From Tubulanus polymorphus (Eukaryota; Nemertea; Palaeonemertea; Tubulaniformes; Tubulanidae), in the NCBI RefSeq assembly GCF_964204645.1, contig NC_134030.1:7810278-7874277 (forward strand): a stretch of DNA of 64,000 bases. Reading direction: 5' to 3'. Below, in pieces: positions 5,054-64,000 of this stretch. A program made the position numbers and the translations under genes. The notes beneath the pieces are model-generated. The model ran no database searches, was not told the origin of the DNA, and saw only the letters and a list, made by a program, of their open reading frames with translations. The first letter of the stretch is position 1, and each line of letters starts with the position of its first letter.

Positions 5054-8000
5054 ATGAAGATCGCAGAATTTATAATTGTTACTTCCGTCGTACTAACTGG
5101 ACTTATTGATTTAGTATCAAGGTAGGTAAAAGCCTTTTATTTGAATATGAATATTCTTTTGATAAAAACATTTTTTTTTTCAATAAGAACGAATTTTTGG
5201 CGATGAAAATACGTAAAGTAAACACGATTCTTGTATGATTATGGAGATTGTTGTAATTGTAATTGTAATTGTTTACTACTAGAAACTGGGTCTAGTTCAT
5301 AGGTCAATGGTTAGAGTAAACCAGTGGATAGTTGACATAGTGACAACTAAAAGTTCTTTGAATAACTGGCCCCAGTGGTGGATTGTGAGACTTGTTTTTT
5401 AGTGCCCTTCTCTATTTTGTCGGCAAAGATAGTTGATGCATTTCAGTGCCGTAGTACCCCTAATATTGCCTTTGTGGCCATCAAAGACAGTGTCCTTTCG
5501 GGACGTGACAAGTTCTTCAAAATTGGCCTCTGGATCACTCCTGAATATTTCTTCAATCTATGGTGATTTAATTTTTTTCTCATCGCGAAAATTATGCATA
5601 TCTGATGAGATCTTTTAATGTTTTAGTTTGAAATTTCTCCCTGAAACACTGTTTGTTCAATATGAGTAAAACGCGCACAGGCAACAAAGGTTTTCTATGA
5701 CTAACAGCAGACTACAATAAGTATATCCTCTTCAACGTACAATTCCGGTTGCGACCTCGTATAAATACCACGCTTGTCCTAAATAGCTCGTTTTTGAAAA
5801 CAAAAATATTTATCGCGAACGATGATGCTTTATTTTCGCAAACATTAAAATTCCTATTTGTCCCCTAGCTACTCGTTTCCAGTAATTCGGCAACATGATA
5901 GGGGCCGCAAATTAGAATATCACCGGACAAAATTGGAATAATGCGGATGCGACCGCAAATCGATACCTGGTTATACATTGTTATGAAACCGGATATCATT
6001 TTGACAGCACTGATTCTATGAATGGTATATAATAAAAAACTATAATTTGAATAGGATTTCAAACACAATGCTAAACGGATCGTGATTTTTGAAAAATACT
6101 TTTGTAACGTAATTATGCCCGCAGTAAGGGTCGTTTTTCGAAAACCGAATAAAGCGGACATTTTTGGTTTCAAATGAACCCAAGTCAGACTAAACGTGGT
6201 TACGGATATTATTGTCTCCTCTCATTCCAAATTAGTTGAACATAAAGCATTTGAAAGTGACTCTTATTCTTTTGACAAAATACACCTTATTTTGCAATCG
6301 ATGATCCCCGGGTATTTGTTTTTCAATGATTTTAGCGACACTATTTCTCCATTGCATGTGTTTTTTTTTATCGCAGTAAAACGTGTTCGTACGGCTGTCA
6401 GGAGGCCTACCAGGTCCGAGAGAGATACACGGAAAAATGTGGAAAATTTGGCTGGAGGCGTTGCACAAGATACAGGTATATATACACGAACTGTACAGTC
6501 TTTCACATTCCACAGTCGTTTCAATATGTGCACGGTTATTTTATTGATATTAACAGTCGTAACATCTCAGACTTTTGAATTGGAACATTTTTTTGCAGAA
6601 CGGTAACTCGCTATCGTCCATCTACCTGTTATAAATGCTGTGACGGTTGGGCCGGTAGCGGTTGTAATACGCGTAAGTTTATCTACACGTGTCCATTCAT
6701 TTCAATTGAGCATCAATTTCATAGAATTTACATTTATGCGTAATGTGTCTAAACACAATTTTCAGCTCTCTGCCCGCAAGGATGCCAAGGACGTGGTTCG
6801 TGTAGTCAACCTGGAGTTTGTGCTTGTCATACGGGATATTCACCGCCGCGTTGTAACGGTAACATCTTATTAATACCGATAATATAATAATGATAATAAT
6901 ATATCAATTTCCACTAAATATTACAATACATCATTATACGTTATAAAAAATGAAGTTAAATGAAATACTTTCGCAGTTTGAATATTTGTGCTCGTCGATT
7001 AAAAAGATGATTATCAGTTTGATCTAAACAGGTCCGCATTCTTTTTCATCGCAGCAAATCTTATATTATACGATTCAATTCGGAGGCACTTCTAGATAAA
7101 AGGTTTCTTAGAATCAAGTATTTCCGTCTTGTACGTATTGTCTGACGCAGGTGATAGCCTGTTATTATTGAAGTGGCTATAAATGTCCTATTGATATTTA
7201 TCAGCCCGTCCTTGTACTGACATAATTACGATTAAGCTGTGATAATAAACTAAGTTGAATAATAAGTCACGATGGTTGATACGTAAATACTTATTTTCAA
7301 GAAATATGTATTTCGTTCATTGAAATATGACATCGGCTATATACGATTCAACGAATTTTGCCCCTTACACCTTTTTTACCCGGAGCCCCCTAATTCTCGA
7401 ACATATATGATCTCAGAGATAAATCTCTTGTGGAGTTCGTAATCAGTTTATATCTATGTTATCCCTGTACAATAGCGTGGACGGTAAATGATGAGTCAAT
7501 GTGAATGAATAATGAGCACGGGCGGGTTCTGTAGATTTCTGTTCTTCTCATCAATAATTCGTTCATTGAAAAGCTTTTGTTTTTTTTCAGACATAAACGA
7601 ATGCGCACAAAATAACGGTGGCTGTCAATATCGATGTGTCAACACTGTCGGTAGCTTCGACTGTAAATGTCAAACCGGATTTCAACTGAAATCTGACAGG
7701 CGGACTTGTACACGTAAATATGCATTCGTTATTCGAGCGTTGTATTGAATAATACCAATTAGTATTCGTTTGTGAGAACGTTTTTCCGTATTGCCAGCCA
7801 GTATCATAAATACTTGCTTCCTCGAGATACTACACTAAACTATCTATCTTATACACAGTCTATAAGGAGGAATTCAGTCTCAATATTCAAGTGCTTTTCG
7901 GACTGCGTGAACTGTGTCATCATTAAGTTTATTGGTGATAAGCGAAATACATTAAAAACGCATTTGACCTATCTTTCATAGCGGTGTGTTTTTCATCGAC

Positions 8001-11000
8001 GACATGTCCTAACGGCGGAAAATGTGAGAGACCAAATTACTGCTCTTGTCCGGTCGGATTCAGCCAACCAAAATGCGAAGGTAAAAGAATTATCAAATTC
8101 TATAAACGAATCTTCTTACACTATACATGTCTGTCGTAGAGATTTCCATGTCATTTTTTCCTGCTCTTCGTAGATATCAACGAGTGTTCAAAAAATAACG
8201 GCGGATGTCAGCATACTTGTATCAACAACCTTGGCTCGTTTAAATGCGCTTGTAAACCAGGCTATCTGCTGCAGTCAGACGGCAAAACATGCATCGGTAC
8301 GAGTTCAGTTACATCAAACTAGGACACATTATTCAACCACTACCATTGTAGCTGTAAACAAGTGATAAAACATACAAATATTCGATAGATGAGGAAAATT
8401 ATTGTACATTACTGTTAGATATAATGATCCTAATGAAAATATGTTGTATATCATTTTCGTTATCAGATATAAACGAATGTGACTCGTATAATGGAGGATG
8501 CAACCATATTTGTACAAACACGCCTGGTAGTTACGAGTGCTCGTGCAATTCCGGGTTCCAACTCGATACAGACGAACGAACTTGTCTGGGTACGTAATTT
8601 CTCGGGGAGCTACAACGATCTTCCCTCCTATCATGGTTATCACCATTATGATGTTTTAAATCAAGTCATGTTAAAAAGTAGCTTCATCACGTAAAACGAG
8701 TTTACTTGATGAACCTACTTTTTACATACTAGCAGCGAAAGCTCGTACCTCAAATATATCTAGTTTCAAATACTATTTCTCTTAACGGTTACCGCTTCAA
8801 ATATCATTAGATCCCTTTCTTTCTTTCAACTCGACACAGACAAACGAACTTGTCTGGGTATATATTTTCTCAGGGATCTGCAACGATCTTTCCTCCTACC
8901 ATGGCGATTGTGCCATTAAGGGCCCACGTCTTGAAATGCAAAAATCCATTCTTTTCAAAACTAATTCTAATCTTTCATTTATCTCAATGTCATGTTTTAA
9001 GTATCAGTGTATCTTGATTCATATAGATATCGACGAATGTCTGGCCGATAACGGAAACTGCGCGCAAATCTGCAACAACAGCATTGGGTCGTACTCGTGT
9101 CAGTGTCGGGATGGATATACATTAGACCCGGACGAAAAAGGTTGTACAGGTAACTATCAACAAAACTCGTGTCGGAAAAAGGGTACAAGGATACCGGCTA
9201 CGCCCGTAAGCGGGAATCTGAAAAATTATATCTGAAATTATATAGAAAATGGATTTTGTATTCAATGAATATCCGTGTTCGATAGATATCGACGAATGTT
9301 TAGTGGAAAACGGCGGATGTTCCAATACGTGTGTAAATACAAACGGATCTTACCACTGCGTCTGTCCAAGCGGCTTCAGGTTAGATGAAACCGAACGCGT
9401 ATGTCAGGGTGAGTATGCTATTTGAGTTTTAGATTGCTTTTACAATCATACACGGAACCAATGTCCTAAAACTTAATTTTCTCGATGATCATTACTCAAA
9501 ACTGGCGTTTAATCTCTTTGAAAAACGCATTTTCAGATATCGATGAGTGTAAAGAATTAAACGGGGGTTGTGCACACGACTGTCGTAATTCTATCGGTTC
9601 ATACTCGTGTCATTGTCGCACTGGATACCGTCTGAATGATGTTGACAGAAGATCATGCGATGGTAGGTGTAAAAATTGTCAAAATATGTCCAGTTTTCTC
9701 ATAACTGTTAAAGAGGAAAACTTCATAATTGCCTTGAAATGTTGATCTGGCGTTTTATCCATAGATGTTTATCTTTCGGCTTGTTTTACCTTAGTCTGAG
9801 ACGATTGGACAAAATTAATCCAAGCTCCCTCCTCTTTCAATCATATCCTGTCGAAAATCCAATTAGTATCCGTATATGATATTATTATTTGTAAATTGAA
9901 AACCTCCTAGATATTGATGAATGCGCTACAGAAAACGGAGGGTGTAATCAAATCTGCACAAACAGTCGCGGGTCTTACACTTGTTCCTGTAATGAAGGAT
10001 ATATCCTTAGAGACGACCGTACGACATGTGAAGGTACAAAGCCATTTACGCATTGATGATATTGATTTAAACTATCAATATATTCTATGAATATGTATGT
10101 TCATACGAATCGAAATTAAAAGTTTTGCCAAAAATTTTTTTTCAGATATAGACGAATGCAAAGTTTTTAACGGTGGCTGTGAACAAATATGCAAAAACCT
10201 GCCCGGATCATTCCTTTGTAAATGTCAGCCTGAACTCATCCTTAGCGAAGATAAGCAGACTTGTGTTGGTAAGTTGGTCAAAAATGTCTTGTGCAAAAAA
10301 AACTGAAACAAACGGTAGTGTGTTCTCTACATTTTATGTTAAATCTTTTTAGAAAAGGATTTTTGCGCTGATAATAACGGTGGATGTCAACATACCTGTA
10401 CCCGCATAAGTGGAGGACGTACGTGTTCCTGTAATATAGGCTACGAGCTGCAACCTGATGCCAAAACATGTTCAGGTGAGAATAGTAGCCATTTACTTTC
10501 TTTGCATATCGGAAAAATGTTCACGTCTCAAGTGGTCACGATGTCCCTGGGTCCAGTTCCACAGTTCCGAGTTAAGCTTTAACTCCGAGTAAACTCATCG
10601 AAAATGAACTAGCTCCAATTCCTTTTTTGACCTATTACTATCTAAAATAACGTTTATTCTTGTACATTTACCAGACAAGAACGAATGTTTAGAAGAAAAT
10701 GGCGGTTGCTCTGACGTATGCATTAACAAAGACGGCTCATATCAATGCCAATGTAAAAATGGCTTTGCTCTTGACGATGACAAGAGGACATGTAAAGGTA
10801 TGTATTTCGCTCGATCATAATCATTGTGACGTATATTGCCAACTTTCCTGATTATTCACTACGGTTACAGATGTCGACGAATGTTTGACTGGTAATGGTG
10901 GTTGCACCCAGCAGTGTGAAAATACAGTCGGTTCGTTCAAATGTAGCTGTCGCAAAGGTTTCCACTTGAAAGGGACATCTGATTGTGAAGGTAAATGAAG

Positions 11001-14000
11001 TATTTAACTATGATTTCGTATTGTATCTAGGGAAACATGTAGATAGTGTTAAAGGTGTTTATTACTATCCCGCTCGAAAATCCTGAACGCATTTCCGCGA
11101 TGCTCAGTGCTTTTGATACTCTTTCCATACAGATATAAATGAATGTCTCGTCAATCTGGGTTCTTGTGAAGAACAGTGCACGAATACGGTGGGAAGTTAT
11201 ATTTGTAGTTGTTCAGGAAATAAGACACTGGACTCAAACGGTAGAACCTGTTCAGGTAAGAAAGATCGATGTGGTTGATAATCATTTATTTTCATTCATC
11301 CGTTATTGATTCATTAGTGCAGGAACGATTACAATTATAACATAATTAGTAGTGGAATGTATGAAGATGTTGACACCTTGTGACATTGCAATGAACGTTT
11401 ATTATAGATGGAGATGCTTGCATTGGGGTCACTGTGTGCCAGCATAAGTGTGTTTCCGAACATGGAAAATGGCACTGCGATTGTAATGAAGGTTATCAAC
11501 TCAATACTGCTGACCAAAAATCATGTTCCGGTAAGACATTCCTGTAAGTCCATTAATTGATATCAACATAGACATCTTAATAAATCCCTTAATCATTATT
11601 GTATGTTTTGTATTGAAGACATAAATGAATGCGCGACCAACAATGGGAACTGCAGTGAACTTTGTATAAACGAACCTGGCAGCTTTAGGTGTGACTGTAA
11701 CATAACAGGGCAACAACTTAATCCCGATAAACGGACATGTAAAGGTAAGACATATTCAAATCGAATTGCTTAGGACGTTTCTTCTATTCTATTGTTAGCA
11801 TGTATTCGTTTCGATTCCATGGCTCCCAATTCATTAATCTAATATGCATGTTAAATTATCAATAATTGTTTCAGATCTCTGCAATCCGAATCCTTGTCTT
11901 CACAAAGGCGTATGCACTATTGCCGAAGACACATTCAATTGTAGCTGCCCAACTGGTTTCACTGGTACTACATGTCACCGAGGGTTGGTGACCGTAGATA
12001 TGCCTGATGTTGTAAACAGCGATACTCCAAGTCAAATGATCGTTCACGCTAAGCCGAATAAACAGTTAATCGTTAGACCTGTTGGAAAGAATCTGATATT
12101 TTCACCAATTGAAGCTGTAATCAAATACCCCAAAACCTCGGCCATATTCAACGTCATGTCAAAGGCGCAAGGGAAGCATCCGCTGGATTTGATTCTCTCC
12201 GGAATAGACTCACCGATATTTGGACTCGCTCCTGGGTTAGGAGAGCTGGTACTTCTTGCAGGCGATGTTTTTACACGCTTACGACTTCCGAGAAAAACTC
12301 TACCCAAAGGATGCTTTAAGATCGACATAGCAAAGTGTCCAGATGGCACGAAAAAACTGACATTTTCCCTGTCCTCAAGTTCACCGTGGTATCGTCTGAA
12401 ATCGAATCCTAACGTATTGTTTACATTCGGAATCGTGTTTGCCGAAAGCGGAAAATTAGCAATACCAGTATCATTAATCGGTCTACAAGTAGACGAATCG
12501 AACAACGGATTCAAAATGGCATTTGCTAGTTCGAATCTGAAAGCAGACGATGGCCATGAAGTACCGGTACCCGACAGAGAAAACTGCTTAGAGATCCCAC
12601 TGTCTTCGAAGGATATTCGCGAGCTCATGTACAGCAATGCGTTTGCTCGACAGTATTTGTTGTCGCTGTACGAACACCTGCCAGCTTGGATACGTCTGAC
12701 AGAGAAAGACATGCCTCTTTTGACAGTCGCTGATATGAAAGCAGACCTCATGCTCGGCAAAGACACACAGAAGCTGTTATCTTGTCAAGGGGCCCCAATC
12801 CACGATGATCGCTACTACAGCGTTTTCCAATTCCAATCTGGTGCTTCGATGTCCATTCTGAACAAAACAGTGAATCTTTTTTCACCATTGAAAGGCAAGA
12901 AATTTTGTCTTATTGTCGACATATGCAAAGATGCCGCCCGCACCGTGGTACTAATGCTTCCACCAGGATCGCGTGATATCTTAGACGGCCTTGATATAAC
13001 TAACGGATTGAAAATCAAGGTCAAAGGAATTGGCCTCAGTCTGACGAGAGACTTAGCGGTGCGACTTCGACCTAAGAGTGTTCGAGTTTGGACCGGTGAT
13101 GAAATAATTCCTTATCCGTAAGATTTTTTTTTGTTATGACCAGTCTTATTAGTATTTTCGCCCTATTACAAAATTTTCACAGAGGCTTTCTCTATGCACA
13201 CTTTCAGTGTTGATCCATCTGCTAGCCTTTGGTTGGCCGGAGAATTCATCTATCAGAGAAATGAGTCCTCTACGCAAATCGCAGCAAATGCCGACAGCCA
13301 ATTTTACGCCGTGATACCATCGCCTAAAACAGTACGTGAAACCTCTCCTCTGATTTATCAATACATTATAGCATTATATTCAATTACATTCAATATAATA
13401 TCATATTCTTTCGTAGCTTCTGACGCACGTGTTTTTACAAGAATGGCACAGCTATCTAAAACTCGACGCCGTACTGAACGTGACTGTGAATTTCAAGCTG
13501 TTTGAAAAACCTCGCTCGCTGCATTTCCCATCAGCTGCTGTACTCGACTCATCGATGTACGCCTCGATCGGTGGTATGTAGAATGAGACGTTCTAAGATG
13601 ATCGGAGATGAGTTGTTTATTGAATCAATAATGACTCATATAACTTCTATCGTCTACTTCTGTTTCAGGGCTGGCTGAGAGAAAGATGTGCGCCCCCAGA
13701 GCCAATCCTTCGGGCATTTTCTTCGCCATGGAACTTGAAGTGAACCCCTTCAGTTTCATTCCAGTCATCGGGGAGTTTGCCGTCACCAATCGCCACATCG
13801 CCTATGCATTTTTAACGTACGATCCTCGTAATGCAATACTGACAGCAAAACCGATCAACATAGGCCGCGATATCCTCGATCTGAAGACAAGAGCATCGCG
13901 TATAGCGAAGTCCATTAAAGACCACGCCAAACAACTGGTGGCTGAAGCGACCGCTGCTGGAAAACAGTTCTACGACAAATTTGAGAACCATGTCGATATG

Positions 14001-17000
14001 CTAGAGGCAAATCTATCGAAAATGGTGGAAGAAATCAGTTTTTTCAATCTGCCTAAGCTTAGTGATGCACTTGCCTTAATCCGTCAATTTGTGAAGGACG
14101 TGGAGTTATCGTTTGAACATTTCACGGATGCACTTAAGATGCCGATCAAAACGGCTATAGAAGGTGTCATCAATTCGATCAAATGGGAAGTAGCAGACGT
14201 TAAGTACAAAGTTGAAATGTTGCAGAGGAGAATCATGCAGCAGGTGACCGACGTGGTGAACAAAAAGTCTGGCTGGGGTTTGAAATATCGAACAACAATC
14301 GAAGTGTTCAGTATTGAATTTGGGGCGATGGATTTAGAAGTGGTGTACTCGACGAATTTCCTCGGTGAATGCAGCCGTTACAAAAGAGTCTACGAGCTTC
14401 TGAAAGGTGAACCAGCACTACGAGGTCTCGCCATATTCCACATTAGATTACAGATATATTGGTGGCTTAGTGTAAATGTTGGTGGCGGTTTTGAATTGGC
14501 GATGGGAACTGAAAGTAAAAATTTCATCATCCGTTTCGCCGGTCGTTTGAAAATATTTGAAGTGATCCGCTCAGAAGTAGACGTGTACATCAGTAAGGCT
14601 GGGCTCACCACTGGTGCAGAATTGAAAGCATGGGATCTGTTTCGAGTTCGGTTGATCATCAGTTCTACGGTAAATGTTCCATGGAAGAAGATAAATGTAA
14701 GAGCTGAAGTCTGGTTTTTGCCCGGTGGCGACAACTCCTTCGAAGGAAGTCTTTCTGAGGCGATAATCGACGTTGCTAAAAGGATTGGAAATGAAGCTAA
14801 CAAGAGATTGACACAGGCGCAAGAAATCTTCGATATAGCGGTTGCGAAGTTGTCCAAAGCTCAGAAATGGCTCGATAAGAAAAAAGCCGAAATGGATAAA
14901 GCGAAGAAAGTGTTCGATTCTGCCGTTAACGAATTGAAACGACTTGAACGGAAAGTTGAAGATCTGAAGCGACCGTTTGAGAAAGCCATGTCTAAGCTTG
15001 AGAGTGCACAGAATAAAGTGAATAGGATTTGCCGAATCAGGAGTTGTAAGCGGATCTGTATTCCAGGATTTAAATGTCGCAAAAAGTGCATTAAGAAGTG
15101 GAGAATCAGAATTTGTTATCCAAGATGTTCTAAAAGTAGCTGTATGATAAGCATTCCGAATGTAGTGTGTTTAACGGCTAATGCAGCCTGCAGAGTCGTC
15201 CGGAAAGCAGCCTACCTTGCACTGGGCGTAGCGAAACTTACCGTTCGTGGAATTATAGGCACCATGGACGTCGCAAGAGCTGGAGTACGCGTTACTGCTT
15301 TTGCCGTAGACAAGTCCAGAGTTATAGTAGATGTAGCTAAACTTCCGTTAGATCTGGCAAAAGTGTCGCTAGAAGCAGTCAAAGTTTCGTTCAAAGCGAG
15401 TAAAGTTGCACTTGAAGGCGTAAAAGAGGTTGTTAAAGGCGCTATAAAAGTGTTTATATTTATTACGAAGAATCTGCCGATAGACGTGAAAAAATGTGGG
15501 TTCTCTGCTCAACTATCCATCATGGACCAGTACGTGTTCGATGTTTCGTGTGAGTTGAATATCTTTAAAACTGGCTGGCATACAGCAAGATTTCGCGTCA
15601 ATTTCAAGAATCCAGTTGCGACCATTTGGGAGGCTGCGCGTGGAATGGTCAAGGGCCTCGTAAACGTTTTAAAAATCGGAAAACGCCGCAAACGAGATTT
15701 GTTATTCCGAGCAAGCATGCAGATAAATCGAGTCCGTCGCAGCGTTGAAGATGATTCGGGCTTCGAAGATCTTTTGACGAATAAAACTTTACCGTTTACT
15801 GACACTGCATTTGATAAGAATACATCGACTGGTAATGAAAAAGCGGAGGATTTGAAGGCGACGGATTTACGTATTGCTTATTTCAGAAATAGATGCAAAC
15901 AAGTTACTGAGGTCGATTCGTACCTCTCATCTGTGGTTGCATTCCTGAACGGAATCTCAAAAGAGATAGTCACTGATCTGGAGAATTCGACAACGCCAAC
16001 CACGCCGGCACCAACTGATGAGCAACCGACGCAGGCGGTTACTCTTGAATCACTCGGTATCAACACGACGGAAGCGATAGAAAAATTCAATATGACACGC
16101 GAAGAGCTTGATGCTATGCTACAAGAGGCATTGGAAAGTGAAGAGATAGCGGCTACACAAAATATGTCGGACTCATTAGCATCTGAAACAGGCGATGATC
16201 CGAATCAATCGGATAACTATCCGTTACTAGATTCGTGGAAAGCAGAAATGGAAAACGTGACCAGTGATCGGTATTCGACATCCGTGTGCAAAGGATTCGC
16301 CGATTGTGTCTTGGTGAAATTTGGAGAACTGTACGATTTATATTCTGGAGTTGATTCGCGATTAAAAGATCGAGCAAACCAGGCAAAACTTATCATCCCA
16401 GAAGTAGAAGAAATGCTCCTACACTTGCTGAATACAAATCTGAGCATGACAGTTACTGAAATATACAACTCAACGTCAAAGATCCTCGAGTTTTTGGATG
16501 AGTTGAGAGCTACAAATCCATTTTGTGTGGAACCTCCGCAGATCAAGGTATCTCCTCGTTCTAAGGTAGTTCTTGAGGGTGCACCGTTGGTGTTGAGTTG
16601 TCGTGCTTCAGATGGTATTGTCTGGCTCAAAGATGGTATCGTTCTTAATACAACTGCTGATGATCTGCGTATAGAAAAAGCAAGTACTGACGACACCGGT
16701 AATTATCAATGCCAAACTGGTAATATCGTGGCAAATATTACTTCAGTTGTTGCTGCTGTTACCATAGAAAATCCACCGACTATAACTAGACAACCTCCGG
16801 TATCAGTTTCTGTTCCCGAAGGGTTCGAACCTGCAGTGAAACTGGATTGCGGTCTAACCGGCATACCAAAACCTGCGATAAAATGGTGCATTTCGAATAA
16901 CGAAGACATTAATCGTCGTTGTATCGAAAGCACTGGCGATCTGGTCATTAAGAAGCCTTCGTTTAAGGATTCCGGTATGTACTGGTGTGAAGCCCGGAAC

Positions 17001-18376
17001 ATTCACGGTAATGTTACTTCAAGAAGATCGACGGTAGTAGTGCGAAAAATACTGTTAGGCTCTCCGGCAGCAAAGATGACGTTTGGATACTTCTTGAAGA
17101 CATCGGGGGCAAGGTGGAAACGATCATTGACCAACGAGCAAATATTGCACCGCGCTTTCGCTACGTCGATTATCAGCAACGTAGCCGTGCCAGGCGTCAA
17201 ACTGGAATTACTAAACAACAACCTTACGATGAGCTACCAACTTCTTAAGCCGATTCCTGACATGACCGGTAATTCGATAAGTTACGCTAATCTGTCCGTT
17301 ACATTCGAAAACGCGCGCACGGCGATGCGTTCGGCTATTGACAATTTGAGAAAAGCTGTAGAGAATGAAGATGTGACAGCCACGTTTCCACAGAAGACAT
17401 ACGTTGCTGATCGTAGCACACTCGTCATGTCTGACGTATGGACGTACTGCCGGGCAGGATATGAACAAAGCAATCATCAAGTGTACCTCTGCGGTAGGTA
17501 AAATGCATGGTTATCTTCCCATTCCGTATATCCGCTACGTTAGTTACGATACTTCGCTTATATTAGTGAACGTATTTAAATTGGTCATCTTTTGTTTTTG
17601 TAGAGGCGTGCCCCGTCGGGCAGTATCGCGCAGATGAGATGCCAACGTGTAGAAAATGCCCCGACGGTACATCCACTAAAGATCAAGCGTCGTCCTCATT
17701 AACATCGTGTCAAGGTATACTTAGCCCTAGAGAGAAGCAAAGGTTTTGATTAAGCTATTAAATGGATAAGAATAATTATGATCCGTGAAATATATCACAT
17801 TGACGGCTTTTAGTCATCAGTGGAGATATTTGGTGTATATAGTCAAGATGTTTTGGTACACATTGGAATGAACAAACAATTTCGATTCAGAACTTAACTG
17901 TTTCTGTACGTATATCTTTTCAGATCCCAGCAAGATATGTTGTCCAAATGGATCGGTATGTGCCTGTTATTCCTTCTCTGTAATTATTTTTTTTTCAAAA
18001 CCAATAGATGAATTTGTATTTCTTTATGTTTCTTTATATAGAATATAGCACTTTACATTGGCCTTGGTTTAGGATTTGGATTGCTGTTAATGTTAACTAT
18101 TATTGGTAAGCATGATTAGATGCGGTTTATATGACGTATTGTCGGTGTGATTGCAATCATCACGTTTGAACTGAGAAATTGCACGTAGGATGCTATATAA
18201 AGATATTTAATTATACTTTTCCAGGAACTGTGGCGTTTGTACTGAGGAGACGTCACAACAAAACTCGACATTTGTCATTCACAAACGAAACGCAAGAACA
18301 ACCGACTATCATGAACAACCCTACGTACGAAGCGACGAACTTCGAACTTACCGAATCAAAAACAACCGACTTTTAG
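5054..18376 (+). CDS. Giant EMI/EGF/Ig receptor, copy A (intact)
   Basis: Type I membrane receptor of 2621 aa, read as 27 coding exons: 5054-5121, 6377-6475, 6599-6672, 6766-6858, 7591-7713, 7982-8080, 8174-8296, 8467-8589, 9027-9149, 9286-9408, 9537-9662, 9911-10033, 10146-10268, 10353-10475, 10675-10797, 10871-10990, 11133-11255, 11408-11530, 11619-11744, 11875-13117, 13208-13331, 13417-13573, 13669-17493, 17604-17714, 17924-17955, 18042-18105, 18225-18376. The sum is 7866 nt, divisible by three, with no internal stop. The start [17 protein letters not shown] is a signal peptide conserved in copies B and C. Order: EMI (about 23-80), EGF modules (81-760), unrecognised region (760-1230), helical and Cys-rich region (1230-2180), two Ig domains (2180-2350), GCC2/GCC3 (2500-2540), TM (2551-2571), tail with NPTY. 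EMI plus NPxY recalls CED-1/Draper/MEGF10, the calcium-binding EGFs and GCC2/GCC3 recall SCUBE/SVEP1. Ligand and function are unknown. Confidence 0.85.
5122..6376 (+). other. Intron 1 of gene A
   Basis: This 1255-base intron separates the signal-peptide exon from the EMI exons. It is much shorter than the same intron in B (2649 bases) and C (3658 bases) and lacks their TTCGTTTTTGC-rich block. On the minus strand, about 5395-5545 is an open stretch of some 50 codons (containing [16 protein letters not shown]) that I cannot assign; it may be a repeat-derived scrap. Confidence 0.4.
6377..6672 (+). CDS. Gene A: two exons of the EMI domain
   Basis: Exons 6377-6475 and 6599-6672 encode about 58 residues with the spacing of an EMI domain: [23 protein letters not shown], then [17 protein letters not shown]. 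The CC-x-G-W-x-x-x-x-C ending is the usual EMI signature. In EMILIN, multimerin and MEGF10/Draper proteins, EMI domains lie at the N-terminus and serve in protein-protein contacts or multimer assembly. The exons join in phase 2, then phase 1 into the EGF array. B and C carry the same two exons. Confidence 0.75.
6766..11744 (+). CDS. Gene A: EGF exon array (16 one-exon modules)
   Basis: Sixteen consecutive exons of 93-126 nt each encode one EGF module, and all begin and end in phase 1, so any exon can be added or lost without breaking the frame. Fourteen are calcium-binding EGFs with the D-[IV]-[ND]-E-C start and the N-G-G-C core; the first (6766-6858) and third (7982-8080, [14 protein letters not shown]) are plain EGFs. 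A seventeenth module opens the next exon ([14 protein letters not shown]). Calcium-binding EGF tandems form stiff rods in fibrillin, fibulin, Notch and SCUBE. One module (10353-10475, [11 protein letters not shown]) departs from the usual DxxEC start. Confidence 0.85.
8825..8857 (+). pseudogene. Fossil 3' end of an EGF exon inside an intron
   Basis: About 33 bases repeat the last part of exon 8467-8589 (code for FQLDTDxRTCL), followed by a decayed copy of its donor and downstream intron (CTGCAACGATCTTTCCTCC). There is no acceptor or 5' half, so it cannot be spliced in. At two positions it matches the copy C exon (52434-52556) rather than the adjacent copy A exon. Confidence 0.6.
11875..13573 (+). 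CDS. Gene A: unrecognised extracellular region (3 exons)
   Basis: Exons 11875-13117, 13208-13331 and 13417-13573 encode about 508 residues. The first 37 or so are an EGF module; the rest (starting [13 protein letters not shown]) matches no family I know. It is beta-rich in appearance with few cysteines and several conserved-looking blocks ([35 protein letters not shown]). Copy C has the same exon at 62685-63924 with about 30 differences in about 377 aligned residues (counted by eye). Copy B lacks it. For the second exon the acceptor at 13207 is chosen because the nearer one at 13180 leads to a stop. Confidence 0.7.
13669..17493 (+). CDS. Gene A: 3.8 kb exon with helices, Cys patch and two Ig domains
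   Basis: This single exon gives about 1275 residues. In order: an alpha/beta stretch ([15 protein letters not shown] onward); a long charged coiled coil ([20 protein letters not shown]); a basic Cys-rich patch ([20 protein letters not shown]); a repeat of K/V/A-rich amphipathic helices ([20 protein letters not shown]); a beta part; a basic site GKRRKRD near residue 1900 that fits furin cleavage; an acidic Thr/Asn-rich spacer; two I-set-like Ig domains (VLSC, VWLKDG, TGNYQC; KLDC, IKWC, SGMYWC); and a C-terminal part with [11 protein letters not shown] leading into the GCC2/GCC3 exon. Only the Ig parts are recognised with confidence. Confidence 0.75.
17604..18376 (+). CDS. Gene A: GCC2/GCC3 module, TM helix and NPTY tail
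   Basis: Exon 17604-17714 encodes a Cys module of the GCC2/GCC3 type ([19 protein letters not shown], then [10 protein letters not shown]) as in SCUBE and SVEP1. Exon 17924-17955 is an 11-residue linker ([11 protein letters not shown]). Exon 18042-18105 is the membrane helix ([20 protein letters not shown]). Exon 18225-18376 is a basic stop-transfer (LRRRHNKTR) and a roughly 50-residue tail with MNNPTYEA. NPxY binds PTB-domain adaptors and endocytic machinery in other receptors. The tail ends at TAG 18374-18376. Confidence 0.8.
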
Positions 18377-22251: not shown

Positions 22252-22404
22252 GTAAGTATTTCTTAAACTTTCCTAATGTCCTTCTAGGAATTTCTTTTGC
22301 TTACAATTTTGCCTCTGTCTATTCTACAAACACTGGTAAGATTATTGATTTCATTCGCAAAATTCTAATACTGGAATGAATGTATTTTCTATTAGAAAGA
22401 TAAT

Positions 22405-25400
22405 ATGAAGATCGGTGAGTTTCTCATCCTCACTACCGTAGTACTTACCGGACTCGACATACATTTAGTTTCAAGGTAGGTAAGAATTCCTTTAAATAAG
22501 AACCAATTTTCGGCTGAGAAAATAAAGTGAAACTAGGTAATGGATATAGTTGTGGTCAAGATAAATATCTTAATGATATGTTCCGCGAGCCCATACTGTA
22601 ATAAACTCTAAGTTCCTTCGTAAACTAGCCAAGTGTATTTTCTTATTTCCATGGGTTGCTCGCAAGCGCCAGCTTGACTGACTTGTTAAGAAACACGATA
22701 AATTTCGTTTAAAGATCAAGTGTAGCCCACAATAGCTTGACACCGTTTAGACACCGTTCATAGGCTGCTGAAAATTATATTTTGTATTCGTTTTCGCGGG
22801 GTAGAAAAACCAATCCTTTCGTTTTGCTGCTTATGCGTCCTAGCAAAAAATGAACTTTTCGTTTTTTATAGGCCTCAAAAAACGAAAATTGATTGAAAGA
22901 TTCGCTTTTGCTATATCATTTTTCCTTTTTTTGCACCACAAATTTCATTTTTGCGCGGCATTAACGAAAGTTCGTTTTTGCTATAAGGGCGCAGAAACGA
23001 AGGTTCTGTTGTAGCGCTATAAGTTTCGTTTTGCGTTTTTCCATTATCGAGGTCATAATAAAAATAATTCACGAGGCCCTCATCAACCACGATACTTATC
23101 ATCCTCCATAATTGGCGCTTTTCCAAAATTCCATTTAATCATATTCAGTCAAATGTAAAATTAAATTCAAGCTTTAATTCAAGCTCATTTTGGTTTTCTC
23201 GCGCGAGAATTCAAAACATTTTGGTTTTCTCACTCGAGAATTCGAAAAGTTTGGTTTTCTCGCGCGAGAAAACAAAAAACGGGCCATTGTAAAAAATTTA
23301 TATCCAGCTTCTAGCCAGTCAGAAAAATTTTTCAAACCAAAATGTTTAGTTTTCTCGCGCGAAAAAAACCAAAAGTTTTGAATTCTCACGCGAGGAAAAC
23401 CAAACTTTTTGAATTCTCGCGTGAGAAAACCAAAAAACGGGCCAACATGAAAATTTTTTTATCGTTGCTTTAGCCGTACAGAAAATTTTTTAGTATGGCC
23501 CAAATCAGCCACCATACAAAATGTGTGTGACGTGCATAATTTTCATATATAGATTTGAAAAAACAGCTTTTGCTAACTGTGTTATTCCAATCAAAGATAT
23601 TGGTGACAAACATTCATTCTTTCTTGACAACCTTTCATTCACCAGACATACTGCGTAGTTCATGTTATCCTTCTATTGTGCAATGATGTTGTCTACATGC
23701 ATAACTCAGACGCTCAGACGACTGTGGCGTTCAAAATACTTCCTGCTTCCAGGGTGCGAACATTCTTCGGTTCATTGGAAAAACCGACAAATATTATTTT
23801 GTTATTGGAAAATAATACAAGACTACTTTTTACCCCTCAGGGCACGGAGGGATATTGTCTGGAATACTTGTTCCTATATTATGGGTGCAGTTTCTGAAGT
23901 AGGCTAATCGTTTTGATATGTTGTGCGTCGTCTAAAGCACTCTTTTGATTTTGGTGTTAGTCACATGTAGAATGGCTGAATAGCAGCAATATTGGATCAT
24001 AAAAATACACGGTTCCGATCTTACAGGGTGCAGGTTTTCACATATGGTGCATGGTAAAAGCTTAAGAATCCCCTTAATGTTTGTGTTAGTTGGTGTTAAT
24101 CGCATTCAAAATGGCTGACTAGTGGCCATATAGGATTATAAAAAATGTACTGTTCCCACGCTAAAGCGTGCAATTTTTTAAGTAGAGTGATTCGATTTGA
24201 CACACGTGGTGTATGGAGTATAGCGAAGATAAAAGCCCCTATTGATTTTGATGTAAATCGCATGGGATGCTATGAAAACAGTTTCCACCGTACAGGGTGC
24301 AGTTTTTGAAGTGGAGTATTTTACTTTTGACTTATGTATACACTTTACTTACCTATGATGGCATTTGTTGATGCCTAAAGGCACTTCGCCATCAATAAGG
24401 TACCGTCCTGTCGGTTCTTCAACAATTTTTTAAGTTCTTCTCAGCTGTAGATAATTAGTTTAGCCTCTGCCAATGTGTTGCGATGCCAGGTCATCTTTAA
24501 TCTACCTCTGTTCCGTCTTTCCCGTGGCTTGTTTTGTTATACTAGCCTTTGGATTTCGCAGGGAGTGACATATCAATTTCCATTTTCTTCGTGTGATATG
24601 TTTTTCTAAAGAAATGTGTTGCGCTATGTCTCATAATTCTTGGTTGGTAGCGTAGTGGAACCAGTGAATTTGAAAATTCAGGCAGTGGTTAACAAATACG
24701 TGTTTCTTCGCCAACATCTTCTTGGTGGTTGTCCATATTGCCTCTGAGCTAGTAGAACTGATTCGGCATTTTTACAACAGTGATATGTTACTAAGTAGCT
24801 AACAAGATACATGCTACACTGTTCCTCTGATTGGTAAACCACTCTGCCAGTAGCAATTTTTTTGTTATAACAAAATGCCTGAGATCGGTTTTTCAAACGC
24901 CGAATGAAGCGGTATTCATTTGTTCAAACATAACAAAATGGATCCTTTTAAATGATGTGATACGCATAATACATTTTTTGTTCATCGTTACAAATCAAGA
25001 AGATACCCATATGTCTATAAATATGTCTATGGTTTTGATGTTAGCTTCGTATTGCAACCGATCATATCCATATTTCTATATTCATCGTACAATACAATTT
25101 TTTTTCATTGCGCATCTTTCGTAGTAAAACGTGTTCGTACAGCTGTCAGGAGGCCTATCAGGTGCAAGAGAGATACAAGAAAAAATGTGGCATATTTAAC
25201 TGGAGGCGTTGCGTAAGATACAGGTATACACGAACTGTCAGTCTTTCACATTCGACAGTCGTTTCAATATCTCCGTTACTTTTGATAAAAAATTCATAAC
25301 ATTTCTGACTTCCAATTATAACTGTTTTGTCACAGAACTGTAACTCGATATCGTCCATCCACCTGTTATAAATGCTGTGAGGGTTGGGCCGGTAGTGGTT

Positions 25401-28400
25401 GTGATACACGTAAGTTTATCTACACGTGTTTCAATTTAGCACGAAAATATTCGTATACTGATTATAGTTGCAATATGCGAAAACGAATTTCAGCTCTTTG
25501 TCCACAAGGATGCCAAGCGCGTGGTTCGTGTAGCCAACCAGGAGTTTGTTCTTGTCATGCAGGATATTCACCACCGCGTTGTAACGGTAAGATCTTATAA
25601 CCTTCTTTCACCTTCCACAGTGTATTTGCTAATCGATTGAAGATGATTTTAAGCTAGCCCTAGGCCTACATTTTTATCCATTAAAGCAATGTTTTTAGCC
25701 CACTTGGGACTTATTCGAGCGGGCTATTGCGTTCACTTCATATCCGTACATTAGACAGAATCAGTTATTTTGGGAAGTTTTACAGATGCGTCGATGGATT
25801 TGGTTGGATGGTTTTTACATGTATCTACCCTAGACGATTCTGAAAGCTGGGGCCGTCCTGTGACCTTTTTTCGTACCCAAAAAGGTCATTCTTGTTTGAA
25901 TTCCGAGCCCAGTTTGTCTTTTTCATTGACATTTCTGATGGTATGCCACGCATGAAAATGGCTAGTTTCTCATCACTTTCATTTTTCACGCGCGTCAGTG
26001 AAAGATGAAAATAAGAATCTGCAGAAATCTGTTTTCGGAAAAAGTAAAACAGTCCTGCTCGCGTCCCATGTATTTTTCACGGTCGCTACTCAATTGTTAC
26101 TGTGGCATAGGTGAGCATTTCTGGAACGAAGTGCTTTCCATCCTGATTCAAGGTCGTTGACGCCTAACTTTCCCCATTTTAAATGCAAAATGTACCATGT
26201 TGACAGAGAATATCGGATTTTAGCTACCCTGCACGATTTAGTAAAAATGAGAGCACGCAGACTCGTAGCGTAGCGTACTTGCCACCCAGCTTGCCAATCC
26301 AGCGGTCGGTTCAAGAACTTTTTGATTACTGCGAGCCTAACCCTAACCTTCCCCTTACCCTCTAGATCTTCACCCTAACATTGGACCCTAGTACAGTGAT
26401 TGAAAATGCCACTATATTGTTTTGTATACTACCGTGAATTGTACCAAAAACTGAGGAATTATCTTTCAACATGGTACTCGACATACTCGCCTCATCTCTT
26501 TCCAAATTTGGAATAAGGCTTTTTATTTCCCTCTTTTTAAAAAGTGAGGTAATATTAAAACCTGTGTCCCTCGTCATATTTCCGAAAACCCAATAAGTTA
26601 ATTTTCGCATGGTCTTTTAGAAGGGATCTTTAACATATCATACAAGGTCATTGTTTTTTGTGTGTGGTCACCAAAGGGCGTCGAATAGCGAAATAAATCT
26701 GTATTTCCGTTTTATATGTATTCCTTACGTCGTATTTCCTCAAAGCCTCCTCCCAGAGGATTTGCTCGCATATGATTGTTTTTGTGAAATCAAATTGCAT
26801 GTATTTTGTATTTATGAAAAAAATACATTTTCTTTATGTATTTTTGATGATATCCGAAAACGGATAATATAAATGATAACTCAAGTGTGAATACAAATGA
26901 TCAGTTAAAATCAATGAATGTTAAGCTTATCAACTTGGGGCGAGTTATGTTGGTTTCTGTTCTTCTTGTCAATAATGTTCGTTCATTGATTAGTTTTTTG
27001 TTGTTATTTTTCATTTCTTAGATATAGTTGAATGTGCGCAAAATAACGGTGGCTGTCAACATCGATGTGTCAACACTGTCGGTAGCTTCGACTGTAAATG
27101 TATAGCCGGATATCAACTGAAATCTGACAGACTGGCCTGTGCACGTAAATATATATTCGTTTGGATAATGAAATTCTTGTTATTTCAAGTTTATCATCAT
27201 TGTTACTTATTACTTTCTTGGAAAACCGTTTTTACGGTTTTAACAACTATTAGTAATACTTGCTATCTGACTTACTCCAAAAAAATTAGATACTAAACTA
27301 TCTGACCCTATGCTAAATCCGAAGAAGAATTCGGTCTCAATTTCAAAGTAATTTTGAGACTGTTTGGGACTAGTTAAGCCCATTGGCAATTAGCGATAGC
27401 CACTAAAACATAATTGACCTGTCTTTCATAGCGGTGTGTTTTTCATCGACGACATGTCCAAACGGTGGAAAATGCGAGAGACCAAATTACTGCTCTTGTC
27501 CGGTCGGATTCAGCCAACCAAAATGCGAAGGTGAAAGAATTATAAAATTCTATAAATGAATCTAATTACACTATTCATGCCTATCGTAGCACTTTTCTAT
27601 ATGTTATTTTTTTCCTGCTCTTCGTAGATGTCAACGAGTGTTCAAGAAATAACGGCGGATGTCAGCATACTTGCATCAACAGCCTCGGCTCGTTTAAATG
27701 CGATTGTAAACCAGGATATCTGCTGCAGTCAGACGGCAAAACATGCACCGGTACGAGTACCTTAGATCAGAAATAGGATCCCGTTATTCAACCTCTGCAA
27801 TTGTAGATGTTAGCAAATAGTCAAACATACAAATATTCCATAGTCGATGACATTTACATTATTGAACATAATGATATCTATAATAATAATTCATCTTCAA
27901 AATAAAAAACAATAACTTAACTAACTATTATAATTATTACTATTCTATTAGAATTCTAATATTTCTAATTATTAACTAGAATACTTCATATTACAATTAG
28001 ATTCGAATAACAAAAAAATAACATCAAATAGATATTAAAATCTAATATTTCTTAGTTAACAACTAGAATTCTTTAAAACATGATCCTAATGAAAACACGG
28101 TGTTTATGATTTTTTCATATATCAGATATAAACGAATGTGACTCGTATGATGGAGGATGCAACCATATTTGTACAAACACGCCTGGTAATTACAACTGCT
28201 CGTGCAATTCCGGGTTCCAACTCGATACAGACGAAAGAACTTGTCTGGGTATGTAATTTTTAGGGGAGCTGCAACGATCTATCGCTCCTTTCAAGACTTT
28301 TGTGCCATTGGGCCAAGGTTTTGAATACCAAATAAGTCCTTTTAGATCTTATTCTTGAAATATCATTCGAGGACGGCTGTGTTTTAAGTACCGGTATCTA

Positions 28401-31400
28401 CATTACATTCGAACGGATTAGTCGAAATAAAGATAACGTCCGTGCGCACGAATGGAAATAATTATTTTTTCGTATGTCTCCTCCGAGGTTCCGTAAACTT
28501 ACCACACATACCGATACCCCCCATAATTGGGAATCTGAGCTTTAGTTTCAATCGAATATATCGTATATGTCACTTACTCTGATCTCGTCTCATTTAATTT
28601 CGTGCATACTTTCCCTTCATTTCGCATATAAATCCATGTTTCTTTAGATATCGATGAATGTTTAGTGGAAAATGGTGGATGTTCCAATACGTGTGTTAAT
28701 ACTAACGGATCTTACCACTGCGTTTGTCCAAGCGGTTTCAAGTTAGATGAAGCTGGACGCGTATGTCAAGGTGAGTGTACTATTTTAGTTTTAGATTGTT
28801 ACCATTTAATTTTCAGATTATTTTCAAAATCACACATGGAAGTGATTACTACGAACTTGAAAAACACTTTATGTTCATGATCATCTATATTTTAAACCGG
28901 TGTTGAAGTACCTTAAATTACGTTTTTTCAGATATCAACGAGTGTTCAAGAAATAACGGCGGATGTCAGCATACTTGTATCAACAGCCTCGGCTCGTTTA
29001 AATGCGCTTGTAAACCAGGCTATCTGCTACAGTCAGACGGCAAAACATGCATCGGTAGGAGTACTGTTACATCAAACTAGGACCCCGTTAAGCAACTACC
29101 ACGATATTATTCTATAGCAGTAAACAAACAGTTAAAAACACAAATATTCCATATTCGAGGATAATTACGATTATGTTTTATCAGATATAAACGAATGTGA
29201 CTCGCATAATGGAGGATGCAACCATGCTTGTACAAACACGCCTGGTAGTTACAACTGCTCGTGCAATTCCGGGTTCCAACTCGATACAGACGAACGAACT
29301 TGTCTGGGTATGTATCATCTTGGGGACCCGCAATGATGTTTCCTCTTATCACGACTATTGTTCCAGGGCCTATGTTTTGAAATACAAAAATGAAAAAGGT
29401 TTTTGAATCTTATTCTTCAATCAAATATCACTCGATCACCTCCTGTCGTGTTTTAAATACCGGGAATAGGTGTATCTTAATTGTTACAAATAACGATGAA
29501 TGTCTGGCCTGTAACGGAAATTGCGCACCAATATACAACAACAGCATTGGGTCGTACCCGAGACGTGTGGCATGACTAATAGCTTGCCTTTGTCAATAAC
29601 ATTTTGATGGTTACGATTCTAAAAGGGATATTCAACATATCAGACACGATCATTGGTTTTTTATATGATCAACACAGGGCGTTGAATAGCGAAATGCTAA
29701 GTTTTTCTGTATCGTATCCGGCATTCCTACGCCATATTCACTAAGAGCGTCAGAATTATTGGTAATATTTGTTCACATATTATGTTTATCTGAAATTAGA
29801 GTTGCATTTTTCATCTGCCATGAAAAAATACATTTTCCAAAAAGGGATGATACAAATGATGACTCAAAATAAAAGAATGATGAGCTTATCAACTTGTAAC
29901 GAGTTATGTTGATTTTAGTCCTTCTTATCAATCACTGGTTCATTGAATAATTTTTTCTCGTTGTTTTTCATTTCTTAGACATAAACGAATGCACACGAAA
30001 TCACGGTGGCTGTCAACATCGGTGTGTCAACACAGTCGGTAGCTTCGACTGTAAATGTATAGCCGTATATCAACTCAAATCTGATAGACGAACTTGTACA
30101 CGTAAATATTCACTCGTTTGAATAATAAAATAACCATTTTGATTTTCAGTATATAAGGTTAGAAACTTTCTTGTATTCCTGGTGATTATTAAAAATCAAA
30201 TCATAAAATTTTTTGAAGTTTTTGAGGTTTATTACCCCTAACCCTCTAATTCCCTTAAACCCTTACCTCGTAATTTCTTACCCTCTAAACCCTTACCCAC
30301 TAAGCCCCTACCCTCTAAACACCTACCTTTTCCCTCTAAACTCTTAACCATAACCCTACAAACTTTAATCCTCTTAAACCTAACCCGCTAAACCCAAAAC
30401 AATTCCCCTATGATCTCTTATGTTTTATACACTTACCCTATCAACTCTAACCCCCTTTACCTGTACCCTCTAAACTCTGAACCCTTCCCACTGAACTCTA
30501 AGCGCCTATACACCCTCTAAACTCCAATCGTCTAAACCCATACCACCTAAGTCCTTACCCTCTTAATCCAACCATATAATTCCTTAACGGCCAAACCCAA
30601 ATAACTGCTCTCGCACAAGAAAACGTTTTGAATTCTCGCGAGAGAACAAAGAAAAAACGGGCCAATATAAATTCTTGTATCGTGTATCTAGCCGTACAGC
30701 AATGTTTGTAGTGTGGCACGAATCAGCCGTGTATCAGTTTTTGAAAATGGCCCATAGGATTTGGTCGGAACGTCAAATGCTCATTTAGTTATATGACACC
30801 GTAAAAAGTGTTACAATACTGTTTATATACATATAAGCATATTTAAGAGGTTCTTAGTGGATCGATGTGCACTACGTCATCAAAATATCGGGGCTTAACT
30901 GGTTGCCGGTGAATTCAATTTAACTGTCGATTTATTCAAATCTAAAATAATTGACCCTTAATATCATATAATTTTGTATGATATTATTATTGATTATCAA
31001 CAATATCAAGCAATATTTGTTATTTTTCAAGGCGTAAATAAATCTTATTTATTTCTTTATATTGTGGGGTTTCACTTCAGGATTAGACAGTCAATTTTCT
31101 ATGAACCAGCATTAAAAACTTTTTGATTTGACCTATCATTCGTAGCGGTGTGTTTTTCATCGACGACATGTCCCAACGGCGGAAAATGCCTGAGTCCAAA
31201 TTACTGCTCTTGTCCGCTCGGATTCAGCCAACCAAAATGCGAAGGTGAAAAAATTATCAAATTCTATAAACGAATCTTATCACGCTGTACATGTCTGTCG
31301 TGGAGATTTCTATATTAGTTTTTTTTCTGCTCTTCGTAGACATCGACGAGTGTTCAACAAATAACGGTGGATGTCAGCATACGTGTATCAACAACCTCGG

Positions 31401-34400: not shown

Positions 34401-34575
34401 ATCCAACCTTGTTTTATCTAAGAAACCAGGATGCTTTATAAAGATAGTTAAGTGTATTTTTTCAGGAACTGTGACATATATATTGAGAAGACGTCGCGCA
34501 AAAGCTCGATCCCAAAACGAAATAAAACATGAACCGGCTGTTATGAACAACCCTGTGTACGAATCAATAAAGTAA
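22405..34575 (+). CDS. EMI/EGF receptor, copy B (shortened, partly decayed)
   Basis: Surviving exons: 22405-22475, 25125-25223, 25336-25409, 25494-25586, 27022-27144, 27432-27530, 27628-27750, 28126-28248, 28648-28770, 28932-29054, 29185-29307, 29979-30101, 31146-31244, 31340-31462, 31641-31763, 32133-32255, 33942-33973, 34049-34112, 34466-34575. They total 1971 nt, which is in frame: 656 aa with signal peptide ([17 protein letters not shown]), EMI, 13 EGF modules, TM helix ([18 protein letters not shown]) and a tail ending [10 protein letters not shown]. The large exons, Ig domains and GCC2/GCC3 module of copy A are gone or wrecked, and the linker's two cysteines have become Tyr and Ser (KIYSTNG). 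Four further exon copies are dead and would have to be skipped. It may be an expressed short receptor or a pseudogene; the intact frame over 19 exons and retained NPVY favour at least recent function. Confidence 0.55.
22476..25124 (+). other. Intron 1 of gene B
   Basis: A 2649-base intron with no gene. 22770-23110 aligns with copy C 46130-46480 (rich in TTCGTTTTTGC). 23175-23520 is a foldback element absent from C. 23590-23900 aligns with C 47190-47420 and provides empty sites for two MITEs present in C. The rest is AT-rich with no visible structure. Confidence 0.5.
23175..23520. repeat. Foldback element made of TTCTCGCGCGAGAA palindromes
   Basis: Six or more copies of the palindrome TTCTCGCGCGAGAA (with variants such as TTCTCACGCGAG) occur, most within GGTTTTCTCGCGCGAGAA contexts, in two arms that each end in AACGGGCCA. 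Copy C lacks it (compare 46500-46550). A broken piece of the same repeat is at 30604-30730. Frames on both strands here are repeats, not genes. Confidence 0.6.
25587..27021 (+). other. Intron 4 of gene B
   Basis: A 1435-base intron without recognisable genes. Its last part (26600-27020) aligns with copy C 50890-51320 and, in a second version, with 29630-29978 of gene B itself, showing that the intron was carried along when the EGF cassette doubled. A short telomere-like string (GCCTAACCCTAACC) is at 26334-26347. Confidence 0.4.
29491..29575 (+). pseudogene. Dead EGF exon copy 1 in gene B
   Basis: It matches the 9027-9149 exon of gene A (module [12 protein letters not shown]) but reads [11 protein letters not shown] then [11 protein letters not shown]. 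The AG acceptor is lost, a cysteine has become Tyr, and a TGA follows at the end of the readable part. The 3' half and donor are gone. Confidence 0.7.
30225..30600. repeat. Degenerate telomere-like CCCTCTAAACCCTTA repeat
   Basis: About 375 bases of irregular tandem CCCTCTAAACCCTTACC-type units, related to but not identical with the (CCCTAA)n animal telomere repeat. It sits in an intron of gene B between a duplicated exon (ends 30101) and the next (starts 31146). It is followed directly by the TTCTCGCGAGAG foldback scrap. Confidence 0.6.
30604..30730. repeat. Broken copy of the TTCTCGCG foldback
   Basis: The sequence GAATTCTCGCGAGAGAAC, then AACGGGCCA and CTAGCCGTACAG repeats the right arm of the element at 23175-23520 together with its right flank (TAGCCGTACAG at 23472). 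The left arm is missing. Confidence 0.5.
32411..32531 (+). pseudogene. Dead EGF exon copy 2 in gene B
   Basis: It repeats the 28932-29054 exon ([14 protein letters not shown]) closely, and the donor GTAGGA is intact, but the acceptor CAG and the first codons have been replaced by CTTTATGAACGAG. Using the nearest upstream AG (32405-32406) gives a TGA in the required phase, so the exon cannot be used. Confidence 0.7.
32659..32784 (+). pseudogene. Dead chimeric EGF exon at a deletion join
   Basis: The left part (TTATCAGATA, GAACGA) resembles the start of the DINECD-type exon (29185), the right part (GGCCGTGAACAAATATGC to TTGCGTTG before GTAAG) resembles the gene A exon at 10146-10268. Stops interrupt it. 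It marks where a deletion fused two different EGF exons and removed what lay between. Confidence 0.65.
33517..33611 (+). pseudogene. Remnant of the GCC2/GCC3 exon, gene B
   Basis: It matches gene A 17620-17714 from TATCGCACGGATGAGAT to AGATCAAGCGTCATCCTCG. The 5' part with the first cysteine and the acceptor is replaced by unrelated sequence, and the donor end is destroyed (TCGGTTTCGACG). It is not usable as an exon. Confidence 0.7.
33690..33905 (-). mobile_element. LINE 3'-tail-like insertion, gene B only
   Basis: Compared with the gene A intron near 17830-17900, about 200 bases are added here. On the minus strand the insert ends AATAAAGTGTTCAAATCAAATC, a tail like that of the unit A insertion at 20663-20880 but with a different body. 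Non-LTR retrotransposon origin is inferred from the tail. Confidence 0.45.
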
Positions 34576-36864: not shown

Positions 36865-38534
<1,670 letters not shown>

Positions 38535-63924: not shown

Positions 63925-64000
63925 GTAAGTTCCTTATCATTTTCCTTATCCGTGATTAATGTGATCAGTCTCATTAATAATAATTTCAATACAATCATAA

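Follow-up and report, generated by a model that had tools for sequence, protein, structure and literature searches.

A gene at positions 5054-18376 (plus strand) of the 64,000-nucleotide stretch of DNA analysed here, hereafter called the window, very probably encodes one real transmembrane receptor (copy A), in which standard animal receptor modules surround about 1,150 residues that are under selection, keep their cysteines between gene copies and match nothing in Pfam (at its cut-offs) or in the PDB. Spliced by reading frame, its 27 exons give one frame of 2,621 residues with a stop only at the end, and it appears to be an intact, duplicated animal gene whose product is laid out as a giant type I membrane receptor. 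An earlier note on this DNA had described a single-pass surface receptor whose domains stand in an unusual order, and this description is upheld by a signal peptide, one transmembrane (TM) helix, an NPxY motif and a second copy (copy B) that has the same order and is under selection. Beyond that note, we found a furin-type RRKR site shared by A and B, signs of gene conversion and a third copy that is decayed and lacks exons 20-23. What deserves follow-up is the unmatched middle. The features of copy A, all on the plus strand, are as follows.

5054..5121, plus: exon 1, start codon and signal peptide (splice model; hydrophobic stretch at residues 3-21)
6377..6672, plus: exons 2-3, EMI-like cysteine domain ending in CCDGW, residues 24-80 (Pfam EMI below cut-off)
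6766..11978, plus: exons 4-19 and start of exon 20, 17 EGF modules (splice model, Pfam, cysteines)
11982..13573, plus: exons 20-22, region U1, residues 756-1228 (no Pfam match at cut-off)
13669..15695, plus: first part of exon 23, region U2, residues 1229-1903 (no Pfam match at cut-off)
14748-15032, plus: coiled coil in U2 (heptad periodicity)
15030-15206, plus: basic cysteine patch in U2
15204-15536, plus: K/V/A heptad helix in U2 (heptad periodicity)
15684..15695, plus: furin-type site RRKR↓D, residues 1900-1903 (pattern scan; identical in A and B)
15696..16508, plus: acidic Ser/Thr-rich linker, residues 1904-2174 (composition, pattern scan)
15729-15740, plus: second site, RVRR in A and RFRR in B, then S, 15 residues after the first (pattern scan)
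16536..17024, plus: two Ig domains (Pfam Ig_3, two stretches)
17067..17493, plus: unnamed linker from Ig to GCC2/GCC3, end of exon 23 (no Pfam match)
17604..17714, plus: exon 24, GCC2/GCC3 (Pfam Ephrin_rec_like)
18042..18105, plus: exon 26, TM helix, residues 2560-2578 (hydropathy)
18225..18376, plus: exon 27, cytoplasmic tail and stop (splice model, pattern scan)
18317-18328, plus: NPTY in the tail, residue 2603 (pattern scan; one in copy A)

Gene structure and the second copy

Re-splicing reproduced exactly the coordinates, 27 exons, phases and 2,621-residue frame first reported. All 26 introns of copy A are GT-AG, but this count is no independent test, because the exon boundaries were set by eye to keep both the frame and GT-AG; the independent tests are the second copy and the long open exons. 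Exon 20 (1,243 bases, 413 codons) begins with EGF17 and continues into U1, and exon 23 (3,825 bases, 1,274 codons) takes in U2 as well as the two Ig domains. Since each of them spans a junction, two joints of the odd architecture are independent of splicing. Neither exon has a stop in frame, versus 8-31 stops in the other five frames of exon 20 and 19-98 in those of exon 23, and in 100 first-order Markov simulations of the 13.3 kb locus no frame stayed open for more than 193 codons (median of the longest stretch 130). Although the splice sites were picked by eye and the model is built from DNA sequence, a wrong fusion of two adjacent genes is highly improbable, since exon 20 alone links EGF17 to U1, exon 23 alone links U2, the linker and both Ig domains, and the same order and splice phases are repeated in copy B.

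Copy B lies downstream:

49545..64000, and on to 69529 beyond the window, plus: copy B, exon 2 onward (open frame of 2,607 residues)

It has 26 exons, its introns are of the GT-AG type in 24 cases and of the GC-AG type in one, and its frame of 2,607 residues runs without a break through the domain order of copy A; its first exon, which would carry the signal peptide, was not found. The GC donor belongs to the intron at 62526, where copy A has GT.

The two copies are 84.8% identical, with an overall dN/dS of 0.30. When the alignment was divided into eight segments, dN/dS ranged from 0.17 to 0.55 and the bootstrap 95% interval lay below 1 in all eight, the upper limits coming near 1 for the Ig segment (0.95) and the GCC-TM-tail segment (0.93); U1 had a value of 0.17 (0.12-0.25). 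Every one of the 148 cysteines in copy A is kept in copy B: 8/8 in the EMI-like domain, 102/102 in the EGF modules, 6/6 in U1, 14/14 in U2, 3/3 in the acidic linker, 7/7 in the Ig domains and 8/8 in the second linker with GCC2/GCC3. Cysteine conservation extends to the coiled coil and Cys patch, although identity there drops to about 62-71%. The TM helix and tail taken alone gave a dN/dS of 0.87 and 56.2% identity with 8 gap columns, a divergence that speaks against a constrained signalling tail beyond NPxY, while RRKR↓D is identical and NPTY/NPAY is kept.

Divergence between the copies is also patchy, dS being 0 at residues 1301-1400 and 0.93 at residues 1701-1800. The longest run of identical codons, 189 from residue 1232, compares with at most 44 in 2,000 shuffles, and window positions 13669-14268 are 98-100% identical to about 64477-65080 in 150-base steps, versus 65-72% in other steps of the same exon. 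The simplest reading of this pattern would be gene conversion between A and B, because protein constraint alone would not silence synonymous change.

The amino-terminal EMI-like domain and EGF modules

The protein had been thought to open with an EMI domain. An N-terminal EMI-like cysteine domain is indeed present, but Pfam did not confirm EMI itself: on a short N-terminal piece of copy A the model (PF07546) reached 12.2 bits against a cut-off of 25 (E 0.34, profile positions 23-69 only), it was absent from the Pfam matches to residues 1-308 at E <= 1, and the corresponding piece of copy B had no Pfam EMI match. In PMC11949838, EMI is described as a single, N-terminal domain with three disulfides; the domain here is N-terminal but has eight cysteines, and with its score below cut-off 'EMI-like' is therefore a fair name, EMI being unproven. 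A genome-wide profile search placed the EMI model at three other sites, two of them above cut-off. One of these two, a gene at C7:747805, has an EMI half above cut-off (25.3 bits) and, by eye, resembles EMI halves with a NIM-like EGF after them, making it a candidate for a true CED-1/MEGF10- or EGFL7-type gene.

The count of 17 EGF modules was correct: six cysteines are present in 17/17, and Pfam confirmed their type. Exons 4-19 are sixteen exons of 93-126 bases, each carrying one EGF in phase 1, and EGF17 opens exon 20. Over the run, Pfam reported EGF_CA in 13 stretches and FXa_inhibition in 14, with no laminin-EGF at E <= 0.1; by these matches most modules of copy A are predicted to be of the calcium-binding type, and the run as a whole of the calcium-binding/FXa-inhibition kind. 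According to PMC4073527, the Nimrod CCxGY motif precedes NIM repeats of the consensus CxPxCxxxCxNGxCxxPxxCxCxxGY. Compared with this consensus by eye, only the first of the 17 EGFs is close, two of its gaps being one residue longer, and the possible Nimrod-like features of copy A are this near-match and CCDGW.

The solved structures that best matched residues 25-151 were NELL2, adhesion GPCR E5 and then the EGFs of LRP4, with LDLR also scoring high. An EMI domain, a NIM-like EGF and then calcium-binding EGFs also begin MEGF6 and EGFL7, two proteins that the first description left out of account, and for the N-terminus these may be a more promising lead than CED-1. MEGF6 and EGFL7 are, however, secreted and are not known to have the middle, Ig domains, TM and tail.

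The unmatched middle

No Pfam family matched residues 756-1903 at its cut-off. The matches to U2 below cut-off are coiled-coil models (best DUF3584, E 0.0079, 14.2 bits versus 31), and we read them as suggesting a coiled coil only. Among PDB sequences, the best match to residues 748-1134 had an E of 1.5 by single sequence, with none up to E 5 by a two-copy profile; U2 gave at best 0.23 by single sequence and 0.36 by two-copy profile, and residues 1134-1228 gave none up to E 5. The coiled coil and K/V/A-rich helical repeat described previously are supported by heptad periodicity. In the coiled coil (residues 1595-1680) lag-7 identity was 17 versus a mean of 6.7, and in the K/V/A region (residues 1740-1850) 22 versus 8.9, values reached by 1/5,000 shuffles each.

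When the genome (267.8 Mb, 77 contigs) was searched with residues 748-1134 (E <= 0.001), both of the two scored candidates matched, and with residues 1229-1906 (E <= 0.1) two of 65 did; in each search these were copies A and B only. Residues 1135-1228 (exons 21-22) matched only A and B within 290 kb of the locus. In viral and prokaryote collections, searched with the U2-to-Ig alignment by two peptide patterns each, there were 36 and 93 pattern matches and 0 confirmed relatives. The earlier note had also called for structure prediction of the middle: models were made by AlphaFold without a deep alignment, and their pLDDT of 32.5 (residues 748-1133) and 41.7 (1229-1906) is too poor to support any fold. 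The low-confidence model hints, and only hints, that U2 may alternate strand-rich and helical stretches. A marginal hydropathy peak (1.63 versus a threshold of 1.6) occurs at residues 834-852.

A comparison of 11 segments for internal repeats (55 profile pairs) gave Ig1-Ig2 as the only real match. The va-b2 and b2-post matches were rejected, as they came from residues common to both query pieces.

One speculative reading, which we regard as unlikely, is that the middle forms a new class of extracellular assembly, its strand-rich and heptad-helix units oligomerising or touching lipid at the end of an EGF rod in a convertase-cut, two-chain receptor. If this were true, the receptor family would stand outside the CED-1, SCUBE and LRP kinds.

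From the cleavage sites to the tail

Four R-X-[KR]-R patterns occur in each copy. Besides the two sites listed above there are a RYKR inside U2 in both copies and a last site, RWKR / RQKR, followed by Pro in B; given the number of patterns and this Pro, the patterns alone are therefore no proof of cleavage. The acidic linker of 271 residues contains 50 D/E, 25 K/R and 51 S/T, with many N-glycosylation motifs.

The two Ig domains and GCC2/GCC3 named earlier were both recovered by Pfam, as two stretches of Ig_3 and as Ephrin_rec_like (PF07699, 27.8 bits versus a cut-off of 23.1), which we take to be GCC2/GCC3. A genome search with 331 residues of the Ig domains and following linker returned A, B and 28 weak matches, of which 26 stop inside the Ig part (query 1-191) and two extend to query 230, about 40 residues into the linker; a full match to the linker between Ig and GCC was found in A and B only. 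Hydropathy and pattern scans agreed with the single TM helix and NPTY tail previously assigned, with a TM peak at residues 2560-2578 and one NPTY at 2603. Copy B has NPAY at that place, and a pattern scan found no Yxx[LIVMF] in either tail.

Possible function

Following the earlier note, we infer a role in adhesion or engulfment. The most likely, though still tentative, reading of the whole is a convertase-cleaved adhesion or uptake receptor that uses its NPxY motif. A furin-like convertase would cut at RRKR↓D (1903/1904), and the long distal chain so produced would stay attached to a second chain that carries Ig and GCC2/GCC3 and is anchored in the membrane. Ligand would bind to the surface offered by the EGF rod together with the novel middle, and the coiled-coil part would join subunits. 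NPxY would recruit a PTB adaptor of the Ced-6/GULP or Dab type, through which bound cells, particles or matrix would be held and taken up. Precedents for parts of this scheme can be found in three papers: PTB adaptors bind NPxY in Megf10/Draper/CED-1 receptors (PMC8092387), NimA and PEAR1 show EMI-dependent adhesion (PMC13076899), and GCC2/GCC3 lies just outside the membrane in the molluscan receptor ApLRRTK (PMC4200351). If cleavage and uptake really work in this way, the protein would be a giant receptor of two chains, serving uptake or adhesion and constructed around an undescribed middle.

The product could instead be mainly a matrix or cuticle/shell-type structural protein, whose distal chain is freed by the convertase and whose TM part would do no more than anchor it during delivery. 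Runs of calcium-binding EGFs are characteristic of matrix proteins such as fibrillin, and the conserved RRKR↓D, the acidic, Ser/Thr-rich linker and the fast evolution of the TM and tail would suit such a protein. However, an anchor would not need all that A and B both retain, namely two Ig domains, GCC2/GCC3, a single TM and an NPxY, and we consider a structural role rather unlikely.

Relationship to known receptor families

The protein might also be endocytic, taking up lipoproteins or other soluble cargo by an LRP-like logic and binding lipid through amphipathic helices. This would account for the NPxY tail and the heptad V/A/K helices, and LRP4 EGFs and LDLR are among the top structure matches to residues 25-151, after NELL2 and adhesion GPCR E5. 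Such a role is improbable: over copy A, Pfam reported neither LDLa nor a YWTD beta-propeller, only the EGF modules being alike, and the Apolipoprotein match in U2 scored 11.3 bits against a cut-off of 90 (E 0.27) at residues 1299-1350, outside the K/V/A helices. With no LDLa or propeller reported, we did not file the gene under LDLR/LRP.

With CED-1/Draper/MEGF10 (and NimA/PEAR1) the protein shares an EMI-like head ending in CCxGW, an EGF-type ectodomain, one TM (a TM peak in copy A) and a cytoplasmic NPxY (NPTY in A, NPAY in B). It could thus be a true member of this engulfment family that has gained extra domains, and the first EGF, NIM-like against the consensus in PMC4073527, would fit. 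We nevertheless regard membership as quite improbable, because EMI is under its cut-off, the EGF run is of the calcium-binding/FXa type rather than an ectodomain of NIM or laminin-type EGFs, the tail has neither an ITAM nor a YxxL or other Yxx[LIVMF], and the gene at C7:747805 in the same genome combines an EMI half above cut-off with what looks by eye like a NIM-like EGF nearby. About 1,150 unmatched residues, the Ig domains and GCC2/GCC3 are further differences. It is the EGF type and the failing YxxL/ITAM-type motif that keep the gene from being filed under this family.

SCUBE/SVEP1 share with it a run of calcium-binding EGFs and GCC2/GCC3. In contrast to SCUBE, in which the EGF run and GCC2/GCC3 are followed by a C-terminal CUB in a secreted protein, Pfam found neither CUB nor sushi here, and Ig domains, TM and NPxY are present; the gene is not filed under SCUBE because the CUB and secretion features fail. 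The caution of the first description with regard to both CED-1/Draper/MEGF10 and SCUBE was therefore well placed. The Aplysia receptor ApLRRTK, as described in PMC4200351, is likewise a protostome receptor with GCC2/GCC3 followed by a single TM, but has an LRR ectodomain and an intracellular kinase.

The original statement that no known family has this order holds against Pfam, the PDB and a small set of word searches of the literature, among whose listed papers none concerned this domain order, although so few searches do not prove absence; the comparison covers these sources only. Orthologues deposited as uncharacterised animal proteins may well exist. Similar heptad-plus-strand segments may occur in uncharacterised invertebrate proteins. 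Standard modules are often shuffled in animals, and the order alone is therefore a moderate surprise.

The decayed copy and its surroundings

Three copies of the receptor, and no more, were found within 290 kb around the locus. The middle one is decayed, and each copy is followed by a small gene on the opposite strand:

25045..34590, plus: middle copy, decayed (EMI-like and EGF exons, tail match; GCC and TM remnants by eye)
18789-19252, minus: bursicon-beta-like Cys-rich small gene after copy A (Cys pattern)
35073-35480, minus: bursicon-beta-like Cys-rich small gene after the middle copy (Cys pattern)
70365-70830, beyond the window, minus: bursicon-beta-like Cys-rich small gene after copy B (Cys pattern; matches in three pieces)

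The GCC and TM remnants of the middle copy are damaged, as judged by eye, and tblastn (E <= 0.001) gave no match in it to U1, U2 or Ig, exons 20-23 being unmatched beyond the EGF. Tandem copies with putative conversion tracts, together with a decayed copy without the middle exons, offer a natural comparison for the role of the middle. Some EGF exons of the middle copy have been duplicated again (27.6-28.8 and 31.3-32.3 kb, 96-98% alike).

The cysteine pattern of the three minus-strand neighbours is presumably that of bursicon beta, and they had no Pfam match; the third (70365-70830) may be damaged. Between the copies, an ORF at 36868-38226 (minus strand) matches the endonuclease-reverse-transcriptase model Exo_endo_phos_2 at 25.5 bits, below its cut-off of 27.4, runs into a long TA-type repeat and resembles a LINE-like insert. 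Direct repeats with 92-96% identity precede the middle copy (22099-23174) and copy B (45503-46527) and probably belong to the duplicated unit. A tandem repeat with a 62-base period, of about four units or more, lies at 42674-42979.
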